Below are positions 10,156-12,649 of a stretch of DNA of 22,192 bases, one piece after another. The stretch comes from a virus: positions 1 through 22,192 of IMG/VR virus record IMGVR_UViG_3300027963_000372; one strand, given 5' to 3'. The translations under genes were made by a program, and so were the position numbers. Each line of letters starts with the position of its first letter. Positions within the stretch are counted from its first letter, which is position 1. The notes beneath the pieces were generated by a model, which was not told where the DNA came from, searched no databases, and saw only the letters and a program-made list of their open reading frames with translations.

Positions 10156-10524
10156 ATGCCTAACATTCCTACGCCAGAACACGCAGAACTGTTTGCACAA
10201 AGTGTCAGAAAGTGGCAGCAAGTGCTTAGTCTTGGCGATTGGAGAATTGAGAAAGGCATAAAGCCAGCTAAAGCAGCGATGGCTTCTGTTGAGTTCACTC
10301 CTAACGCAAGACTTGCTGTTTATCGATTGGGTGACTTTGGTGCTGAGAAAATTACACCTGAGAGCATAGATAAGACTGCTTTGCATGAATTACTGCACAT
10401 CTTTTTGCATGACTTGATGACTGTGGCACAAGACGCATCCTCCTCTGAGGACGACAAAGAAATGCAAGAGCATCGCATAATCAATTTGCTAGAACACCTT
10501 TTAACCAAGGATTCCAATGGGTAG
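10156..10524 (+). CDS. Putative small zinc metallopeptidase (HExxH)
   Basis: This 122-residue protein carries HELLH at residues 77-81, the zincin active-site motif in which H77 and H81 bind zinc and E78 is the base. H85 follows in HIFLHD. A later acidic-His region (EMQEHRIINLLEH, about 102-114) could give a third ligand. The first half has DWRIEKGIKPAK and a beta segment. The fold resembles small phage SprT- or minigluzincin-like proteins, but the substrate is unknown. It follows the endolysin with a 30-base gap and overlaps the phosphoesterase gene by 8 bases. A role in virion maturation, lysis or host takeover are all possible. Confidence 0.72.
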   Translation: MPNIPTPEHAELFAQSVRKWQQVLSLGDWRIEKGIKPAKAAMASVEFTPNARLAVYRLGDFGAEKITPESIDKTALHELLHIFLHDLMTVAQDASSSEDDKEMQEHRIINLLEHLLTKDSNG

Positions 10525-11503
10525 CCATAACGAAACGTGTACTGATACTGAGTTTATCCAACTGTGGGGACAACTTCAATCTGCACAAAAAATAGCTGAA
10601 CATCTTGGAATAGCAAACAGGGCAGTTCATTTGCGTAGAAGATGGATTGAGAAAACTTACAACATGGCACTTCATGCAAGTGACCATCGTGGTGTTAAAT
10701 ACGACAAAAACAAACCCAAGTCATTTAGTCCACTAAAGCAAGTTGAGCTTGGAATGCTAGATGGCACTGTGATTGTTTTCTCTGACGCGCACTTTATACC
10801 TGGTCAAAGGTCCACGGCCTTTAAAGGATTACTGTGGGCCATTCAAGAATTCAAGCCTCATGCGATCGTGTGCAATGGGGATGCCCTGGATGGTGCATCT
10901 ATAAGCCGCCATGATGTGACTGAACTTCCCCAAACTTCTGTCATTCAAGAACTCAAAGCTACGCAAGGTGCGTTGGGTGAGATTGAGGAAGTGGCCAAAG
11001 CAGCCAGGCACAATGTAAAGCTACTGTTTACATGGGGCAACCATGACATTCGTTTTGGCAACCGACTGGCCCAGCACGCGCCACAATTCAAAGAGGTCAA
11101 AGGCTTTAAGCTCACAGACCACATCCCAGACTGGGACTTCTGCTGGGCAGTGTGGCCCACTGAGCAGTGCATCATCAAACACCGGTACAAGGGGGGGATT
11201 CATGCCACCCACAACAACACTGTCAACGCTGGTGTCAGCATAATAACCGGTCATTTGCATTCATTAAAAGTCACGCCATTCAGCGATTACAACGGGTGTA
11301 GATACGGGGTAGATACAGGGACACTGGCCGAGACTGATGGCCCACAATTTAACTATGCCGAGATAAATCCTAACAACCACAGATCGGGCTTTGCGGTTCT
11401 AAACTTCTTTAATGGGACACTTTTATGGCCAGAGCTGGTCCATAAATTTGACGAAGACATGGTCCAGTTTAGGGGTGAGGTCATCGATGTGGGTGCATTT
11501 TGA
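10517..11503 (+). CDS. Calcineurin-like metallophosphoesterase with N-terminal HTH-like region
   Basis: This 328-residue protein has all five metallophosphoesterase motifs: D90-x-H92 in VFSDAHF, GD at 121-122 in NGDALD, GNHD at 174-177, H229/H232 in GIHATHN, and GHLH at 245-248. These bind two metal ions and hydrolyse phosphoester bonds. Residues about 15-47 (LWGQLQSAQKIAEHLGIANR) look like a helix-turn-helix, so the enzyme may act on DNA or be guided to it. Related proteins are common in phages and are often annotated as DNA repair exonuclease-like, but activity is not established. It overlaps the HExxH gene and the next tiny gene. Confidence 0.85.
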   Translation: MGSHNETCTDTEFIQLWGQLQSAQKIAEHLGIANRAVHLRRRWIEKTYNMALHASDHRGVKYDKNKPKSFSPLKQVELGMLDGTVIVFSDAHFIPGQRSTAFKGLLWAIQEFKPHAIVCNGDALDGASISRHDVTELPQTSVIQELKATQGALGEIEEVAKAARHNVKLLFTWGNHDIRFGNRLAQHAPQFKEVKGFKLTDHIPDWDFCWAVWPTEQCIIKHRYKGGIHATHNNTVNAGVSIITGHLHSLKVTPFSDYNGCRYGVDTGTLAETDGPQFNYAEINPNNHRSGFAVLNFFNGTLLWPELVHKFDEDMVQFRGEVIDVGAF

Positions 11504-11643
11504 GCGCCTGGCTAATCATTCTGACTGGCGCGATCTATGCCTACATTGCTGGGGAGCAGCTCTTTAAAGGCAATCTATATATGGCCGTGGTCTATGCAGG
11601 CTATGCATTTTCAAATGTGGGGCTGTACTTGATGTCCAAGTAA
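11500..11643 (+). CDS. 47-residue membrane protein
   Basis: The frame begins at TTG 11500, overlapping the previous stop (TTGA), and ends at TAA 11641-11643. The product begins SAWLIILTGAIYAYIAGEQL after the initiator and has two hydrophobic stretches (about residues 3-17 and 27-45) split by GEQLFKGNLY. Small phage proteins of this pattern are common. Their function is unknown. The start codon is unusual but the overlap and amphipathic pattern support it. Confidence 0.68.
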   Translation: MSAWLIILTGAIYAYIAGEQLFKGNLYMAVVYAGYAFSNVGLYLMSK

Positions 11644-11652
11644 GCCCCATTT
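11618..11652 (+). terminator. Long hairpin, probable terminator at the convergent gene ends
   Basis: TGGGGCT (11618-11624) pairs with AGCCCCA (11643-11649), and inside it ACTTG (11627-11631) pairs with CAAGT (11637-11641). A short T run follows at 11650-11652. It covers the end of the 47-residue gene and lies between convergent genes, so it may act in both directions. The T run is short. Confidence 0.5.
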
Positions 11653-11664
11653 GCAACCCATAGG

Positions 11665-11889
11665 TTAAAGTTCTTCTTTGGAATCTAAAGCAAAAGGTGG
11701 GATTTCTTCTTCTTCAGTGTCTTCTTCAAAATCTTCATCATCAAGGTTAACTGCTTCATATTCAACTGCCCAGCCGTGTTCTTCTTGAAAAGCAATGAAA
11801 TCTTTGATGATCTCAATTTTTTCAAAATCCCACGTTTCGATTGTAATTTTCTCATTCTCAATAAAACCCAATTCCATTTCAAATTTCAT
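11665..11889 (-). CDS. Acidic small protein on the opposite strand
   Basis: This 74-residue protein is very acidic. It begins MKFEMELGFIENEKITIETW and ends with a run of Asp/Glu (DDEDFEEDTEEEE) before PPFALDSKEEL. GGGGAATGTC just before the ATG is a strong ribosome binding site. It is the only minus-strand gene inside the late region, has its own promoter-like sequence and faces a terminator hairpin, so it resembles a moron. The charge suggests that it mimics DNA or binds a basic partner, such as a host nucleic-acid-binding protein, but there is no domain to confirm this. Confidence 0.75.
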   Translation of the reverse strand: MKFEMELGFIENEKITIETWDFEKIEIIKDFIAFQEEHGWAVEYEAVNLDDEDFEEDTEEEEIPPFALDSKEEL

Positions 11890-11906
11890 GACATTCCCCA
11901 GTTAAA

Positions 11907-11921
11907 GCAGCCGATTGCTGC
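11907..11921 (-). promoter_or_regulatory. Hairpin in the leader of the minus-strand acidic gene
   Basis: GCAGC (11907-11911) pairs with GCTGC (11917-11921) around a five-base loop. It lies between the promoter-like -10 and the ribosome binding site and could stabilise the leader RNA or be an operator. Confidence 0.4.
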
Positions 11922-11922
11922 A

Positions 11923-11950
11923 AAATTATCGTAGTCCGATTTTGTGTCAA
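11923..11950 (-). promoter_or_regulatory. Sigma-70-like promoter for the minus-strand acidic gene
   Basis: On the minus strand TTGACA (11945-11950) is a perfect -35. With a 16-base spacer the -10 would be TAATTT (11923-11928). A better hexamer, GATAAT (11925-11930), gives a 14-base spacer. The transcript would start about 25-30 bases before the ATG. Confidence 0.5.
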
Positions 11951-11995
11951 TGAAAAGTCTTATCCATTGGGGGCTGTTTAGGGCAAAATCAAGCC

Positions 11996-12649
11996 ATGGC
12001 CACCAAACAGCAACAACTTGAAGCCCCATCTATACCAAGTCTGGGTTATCCCCCAGAGGCGTATGAGCGCAGGCATTTAAATGAAAATTACAGCGCCTTA
12101 AATAATTACTTCAGAAAAGTCACTTCAGTGCTAGGGTCTTTGTTTGGACCAAGGGGCGGCAAGTTTATGAACAACCCCTATGGGGCATTTCAAGACTCAA
12201 CCGACCAGGTGGCTGCCAACACCACCACGGCCTATGCGGTCACATTCAACACGACAGACTTTTCCAATGGCGTGACCATGGCCAGTGGGTCCAGAATCAC
12301 TGTGGCCGATGCCGGAATCTGGAACTTGCAGTTTTCCATTCAGTTTACAAATACGACAAATTCGTCTCAAGATGTCGATGTCTGGTTTCGGGTCAATGGT
12401 ACAAATGCGGCCAACTCAAACAGCAGATTTGGCTTTGCACCCAGAAAAGGTGTTGGCGACCCATTTCACACTATTGGTGCAATCAATTATTTTTTGAGCT
12501 TAAATGCCACAGACTATGTTGAGATAATGTGGAGACCAACCGATGTGGGTGTCACGATTGAACAATATCCAGCCGGCACAAGCCCCACACGGCCAGCAGT
12601 GCCATCAGCCATTGTCACAATGAGCTTTGTGTCCAACTTACCAACATAA
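11996..12649 (+). CDS. Virion protein with jelly-roll-like C-terminal domain
   Basis: This 217-residue protein has a short helical head (residues 1-45, YPPEAYERRHLNENYSALNNYFRKV). It is followed by a beta-rich domain from about residue 60 to the end. The pattern AYAVTFNTTDFSNGVTMASG, then AGIWNLQFSIQFTN and DVDVWFRVNG resembles C1q/TNF-like jelly rolls found in phage appendages. It is likely an attachment or decoration protein, with the helical head docking to the tail. It begins a new plus-strand run after the lone minus-strand gene. No good Shine-Dalgarno sequence precedes ATG 11996. Confidence 0.75.
   Translation: MATKQQQLEAPSIPSLGYPPEAYERRHLNENYSALNNYFRKVTSVLGSLFGPRGGKFMNNPYGAFQDSTDQVAANTTTAYAVTFNTTDFSNGVTMASGSRITVADAGIWNLQFSIQFTNTTNSSQDVDVWFRVNGTNAANSNSRFGFAPRKGVGDPFHTIGAINYFLSLNATDYVEIMWRPTDVGVTIEQYPAGTSPTRPAVPSAIVTMSFVSNLPT

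Follow-up and report, generated by a model that had tools for sequence, protein, structure and literature searches.

The acidic gene as an accessory unit

On balance, the small acidic gene described here is best read as an accessory, moron-like unit of about 327 bp with its own promoter-like start, which phages acquire or discard at the convergent gene junction that follows a phosphoesterase gene. Judged by comparison with related loci, the unit has recognizable edges, a history of repeated presence and absence, a protein core under purifying selection and an upstream element of fixed geometry. The sequence studied, referred to as the window, is a whole virus record of 22,192 nt, linear and probably a fragment. 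As supported by the ORF list, the relatives and dN/dS, the coding sequence starts with ATG and occupies positions 11665–11889 of the minus strand, including the stop codon. Its 74-residue product, P0001, contains 27 Asp/Glu and only 5 Lys/Arg residues, has a pI of about 4.05 and carries its acidic run in the C-terminal third, in agreement with the acidic protein ending in an Asp/Glu run that an earlier note on this DNA had described. The gene itself can be regarded as real, since relatives are found in 62 viral loci and the core is under purifying selection. By judgement from the ORF list, it is the sole minus-strand gene within the plus-strand block.

The protein family and its predicted structure

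A profile-derived scan of IMG/VR returned at least 453 relatives of P0001; 80 of these matches were studied, as were 80 of the 289 matches of a separate search. The 141 loci considered below represent 87 distinct sequences, some contigs being present twice. Across the 80 aligned rows, residues F22, F31, Q35, W40 and Y44 are invariant, and the median pairwise dN/dS is 0.18 for residues 1–47 and 0.58 for the tail, values by which the protein core is under purifying selection. The types of C-terminal tail (11665–11712 in the window, and the relatives) vary, with an FAL..E[PE]L end in 47 of the 80 members and a TEV end in nine. The acid run that precedes PPF in the tail of P0001 presumably resembles the tip of SSB proteins, but does not lie at the very end here. 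A shortened family copy of 35 aa with an early stop occurs in L060 (6001–6108), where the promoter-like element is intact and the hairpin is longer and compensated.

The AlphaFold2 model (mean pLDDT 74.4, pTM 0.48), built from the 80-row alignment, predicts a beta-beta-alpha arrangement for residues 2–38 with good confidence. The tail, where most of the acidic residues lie, is predicted with a pLDDT of about 50 and varies in length among relatives; according to the model, it is probably disordered. A fold search of the PDB with this model found nothing significant (best Foldseek E 1.4, best VIA Z 2.6), and its weak matches were to protein-G-like folds or designed mini-proteins. Similarly, no convincing family match for P0001 was obtained in Pfam, PHROG, NCBIfam, PADLOC or the PDB sequences, nor any in Rfam. 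Weak matches to CpcF, RraB, a host exonuclease inhibitor, DUFs and others, all with E values of 0.0049 or worse, were taken as chance. In NCBIfam, one of the 80 members matched the RraB model at E 0.014, whereas these members gave no RraB match in Pfam, and resemblance to this type of RNase E inhibitor is probably due to chance.

No relative of P0001 appeared in bacterial genomes, which were searched with short peptide patterns only, or in phage and plasmid collections by protein, and DNA searches of the latter gave only short, chance-like matches. UniProt A0A6J5LQI9, an uncharacterized protein of an uncultured Caudovirales phage, evidently belongs to the family, having the same length of 74 aa and 72% identity to P0001 in a structural alignment; no function is assigned to it. 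A limited literature search of partial coverage, in which the gene cluster was barely targeted, found no account of the acidic gene or its cluster. Apart from that single uncharacterized UniProt relative, the acidic homologs are thus an undescribed phage family.

The earlier note had suggested a host-directed or anti-defence function, possibly through mimicry of DNA. The net charge of the 80 members (median −20, range −8 to −24) and the accessory, patchy distribution of the gene are compatible with a DNA mimic or another anti-defence protein. However, no family or fold match supports such a role, the neighbours are genes of DNA metabolism and a phosphoesterase, and the acid is mostly placed in a low-confidence tail of variable length, unlike the folded surface described for Ocr (PMC2806950). 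The suggested host-directed role is unsupported, and a DNA mimic or other anti-defence protein is considered quite unlikely.

Genomic neighbourhood and its possible meaning

In the window, the acidic gene faces the end of a metallophosphoesterase gene (MPP; 10517–11503, plus strand; PHROG 221, Pfam PF00149) followed by tm47, a convergent 47-aa hydrophobic ORF (11500–11643, plus strand). The flank on its other side, which characterizes the late context, is g11996, a 217-aa ORF (11996–12649, plus strand) located before a stabilisation-like structural gene. Convergent tm47, after MPP, is the next recognised gene 3' of the acidic gene in 137 of the 141 loci. L062 and L063 carry the acidic gene 13 nt behind MPP and co-directional with it, and L060 and L220 have no tm47 or MPP neighbour. 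In the named environmental phage MW202879.1 (L240), MPP, a 47-aa ORF and the stabilisation protein likewise follow one another in this order, and the annotation shows no gene between the 47-aa ORF and the stabilisation protein.

The adjacency of tm47 in 137/141 loci, together with the same-strand copies 13 nt behind MPP, might indicate that the acidic protein acts together with the adjacent metallophosphoesterase or regulates it. Nevertheless, MPP and tm47 occur without the acidic gene in 34/74 loci, and a shared insertion site would yield the same linkage, which makes this explanation unlikely. The nearly invariant tail-to-tail layout and the structured junction could also be taken to mean that the RNA rather than the protein matters, as a convergent transcript restraining the opposing MPP-tm47 genes. 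This is very improbable in view of the purifying selection on the protein core and of the L062 and L063 copies, which run in the same direction as MPP.

Two contexts predominate on the other side of the gene. Of the 141 loci, 43 have g11996 as their nearest recognised neighbour and 65 a MazG-like, p60 or p109 gene on the same strand as the acidic gene; 31 are unassigned, and two are MPP cases. The leftward operon of the MazG-like/p60/p109 context also holds Erf-like and SSB-like genes, ends with the acidic gene and, by its gene content, would be early. Thus, the acidic gene might be, in essence, the terminal member of a leftward operon for DNA metabolism (with genes for an Erf-like annealing protein, an SSB-like and a MazG-like protein) and have a role in recombination or replication, and it merely rode along with the MPP-tm47 end in the group of the window. 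Consistent with this, several acidic-gene starts overlap the upstream gene or sit 8 nt after it, and 65 loci have one of the same-strand upstream neighbours named above, supported by family matches. However, 31 of the 44 distinct copies with MazG, p60 or p109 have their own upstream element, and the 34/74 MPP loci that lack the acidic gene mostly retain that operon, so that we regard this alternative as rather unlikely.

Two other features of the window can be mentioned here. A 122-aa ORF adjoining MPP (10156–10524), without Pfam or PHROG match, contains HELLHIFLH, which we take to be a zinc-peptidase-like motif. Moreover, the major-capsid-like ORF (1084–1827) has 247 aa as against about 320 aa in the three matching relatives (G002, G003 and G004) so that the reading frame seems to be interrupted in this record or in its assembly.

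Gain and loss of the unit

The distribution of the gene among relatives was assessed in loci sampled by MPP, and not by the acidic gene, 74 of 80 being informative; the six left out were contigs ending less than 450 nt after MPP. The acidic gene is present in 40 of the 74, always on the opposite strand, and absent from 34. In the empty loci, tm47 is mostly 2–30 nt from the next recognised gene, and the promoter-like element described below was found in none of the 35 empty loci listed. All 11 late-context empty sites share one direct junction, in which the tm47 stop is followed by CCATTT and ARGGCAAAAT and then by g11996. The extra DNA of the window, therefore, amounts to about 327 bp, and the whole portable unit on the minus strand can be placed at 11653–11979, with edges uncertain by a shared TTT. 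Its G+C content is 36.4%, as compared with 47.9%, and is among the lowest 1.3% of stretches of 327 nt.

On a tree of 75 MPP proteins, the presence of the acidic gene changes at least 13 times, at least five of which are forced by strong branches, and the genome context switches seven times. The mean after shuffling is 24.4 changes, so presence is clustered on the tree. In L076, the acidic gene is absent but a piece of the outer edge (CCATTGGGG) is retained, which reads as loss of the unit. Thus, the presence and absence check proposed in the earlier note gave a patchy pattern, as expected of a moron-like gene, but not the recent gain that had been anticipated, since the gene is widespread, with the IMG/VR relatives noted above, and loss is also seen. 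Its moron-like character is otherwise borne out by occupied and empty sites, repeated changes of presence, a promoter-like element of its own and a deviating base composition.

A second sample was taken by the stabilisation protein and leaves out 10 loci without a g11996 start and 15 with less than 1500 nt upstream. Among its 55 loci, the acidic gene is present in five; three contain MPP and tm47 but not the acidic gene, and all three genes are missing from the other 47. Different content at the same junction is seen in L273 (after 5124) and L304 (after 5127), which have no acidic gene and gaps of 725 and 565 nt, respectively, with other ORFs. The start of the ORF in L304 resembles that of the 7149 ORF of the window, which presumably is HNH-like. 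Small genes of various kinds may, thus, be accommodated at this site.

The upstream promoter-like element

The perfect TTGACA box reported in the earlier note is present at 11945–11950 of the minus strand and is the core of a conserved block. Eleven nucleotides after it lies TACGAT (11928–11933, minus strand), an instance of a conserved, −10-like TAnnAT box; the window contains one TTGACA-N11-TAnnAT combination, more than the 0.04 expected by chance. A promoter scan found no sigma-70 promoter with 16–18 nt spacing at the upstream site of the acidic gene. Conservation extends from 5 nt before to 4 nt after the TTGACA-like box (−5 to +9), which corresponds to −34 to −20 if TAnnAT is set at −12 to −7.

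The element was found in 70 of the 85 distinct sequences with upstream DNA, including all 20 of the late context. The 15 that lack it comprise seven MazG, five p60, one p109 and two MPP cases, and these copies of the acidic gene look operonic. When spacers of 7–20 nt were tried, the distance between the boxes was 11 in 71/71 distinct sequences where both fit; the spacer letters vary and, therefore, the fixed spacing is not mere identity, although shared descent still contributes. By matrix, the strong element is present as a single copy each in the window, G001, G002, G003, G004 and G006, and was absent from G005, G007, G023 and G025.

Other promoter types were considered. A promoter for a single-subunit phage RNA polymerase was set aside, as the strong element is limited to one copy in each of six records and forms no repeat set; a search with PF00940 gave no match, but its control also matched nowhere. 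TAnnTTTG is the consensus of the Bacteroidetes-type promoter box; by eye, the window agrees with it but the relatives do not.

Leader hairpin, ribosome-binding site and downstream boundary

The predicted transcription start coincides with the first base of a leader hairpin, GCAGC-AATCG-GCTGC (11907–11921, minus strand), whose first G follows TAnnAT at a distance of 6 nt in 53 of the 56 distinct matrix rows, the lowest-scoring of these 56 (−15) probably being a spurious match. The 19-nt hairpin alone has a folding-energy z of −3.3, but inside the 42-nt leader the value is an unexceptional −0.38 and, thus, the case for the leader hairpin proposed in the earlier note rests on conservation and covariation, which do support it. 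Pairing is kept in all 260 cells of 53 rows, and L021 lacks the 3' arm. Both bases of one pair differ in 11 rows, and seven cells contain G-U pairs, so the hairpin fits RNA better than a DNA palindrome; two-sided change is limited to one of the five pairs. The ribosome-binding site that follows, GGGGA (11895–11899, minus strand), had been called strong. As judged by anti-SD pairing energy, it is a moderate Shine–Dalgarno-like site, with −5.5 kcal/mol as opposed to a median of −7.4 kcal/mol among the relatives.

The hairpin that the earlier note took for the terminator of the unit exists at 11619–11648, with a z of about −3.2 on either strand. However, it covers the stop of the plus-strand 47-aa gene, which it ends, is followed by no T-run on the minus strand and persists at loci without the acidic gene, and a scan of the minus strand found no terminator-like site. 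A link between a GGGGC...GCCCC hairpin and the acidic gene, suggested by L076, L079 and L084, where both are absent, was refuted by the larger MPP sample, the hairpin being kept in late-context empty sites such as L279, L310, L312 and L317. The description of the unit as self-contained is, thus, valid on the upstream side, where it has its promoter-like element, but not downstream, since no terminator of its own was found. Morons are defined by a flanking promoter and terminator, and expression from the prophage is typical of them. As the search for an own terminator found none, the unit is called moron-like here and is not classed as a moron. Moreover, prophage expression is not indicated, because no PF00589 integrase was found in 10 records, which may be fragments, whereas the control matched in 14/14.

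Proposed mode of action

The upstream element could function as a promoter in which TAnnAT would be the −10 box and the block at about −34 to −20 would replace a normally spaced −35 box. The transcript would begin with the first hairpin base (11921, minus strand), leaving a paired mRNA 5' end that might resist RppH and RNase E, and production of the acidic protein would be independent of the opposing late genes. Far more speculatively, the beta-hairpin-helix core might bind a partner, and the flexible polyanionic tail might compete for a basic surface with which a host or phage protein binds nucleic acids; a role in DNA metabolism or with the phosphoesterase is nearly as likely. A more far-reaching reading, in which a portable cassette combines an unrecognised promoter type (a −34 to −20 block, 11-nt spacing, no regular −35 and a hairpin at +1), a dedicated host or phage activator and a polyanionic partner-binding protein made independently of the late genes, seems possible but doubtful.

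If the favoured reading of an accessory unit with its own promoter-like start is true, it would provide an accessory gene with sharp boundaries, for which two genome contexts offer natural occupied and empty sites, so that its gain, loss and function are directly testable. It would also provide a conserved promoter-like signal, overlooked by ordinary sigma-70 scans, in uncultured phages that form a widespread group.

Comparison with known systems

Overall, the acidic gene is an accessory gene that is well bounded and undescribed and has an unusual upstream signal, but it is not a new kind of system. The unit resembles phage morons (PMC7067206) in being a single gene antisense to late genes, with a promoter-like signal and an odd base composition, present or absent between syntenic genes. 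It differs in that no terminator of its own was found, in showing no sign of lysogeny in the records searched, and in forming the end of an operon in other phages. With regard to the upstream element, PMC2988021 describes T4 middle promoters in which the MotA box takes over the −35 function. The likeness, in that a conserved block around −30 accompanies the −10 box in place of a regular −35, is a comparison of geometry only, and the block of the acidic unit has another sequence, is closer to the −10 box and occurs as one strong copy per genome. Structure at the 5' end stabilises mRNA, according to PMC3997798, and the acidic gene likewise would have a hairpin at the 5' end of its transcript, provided that the predicted start and the resulting stability are correct. 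Finally, Ocr bears its acidic residues on a folded surface (PMC2806950), and an Ocr-like DNA mimic would be expected to show them on a folded, DNA-shaped surface; the model of P0001 places most of them in its poorly predicted tail.
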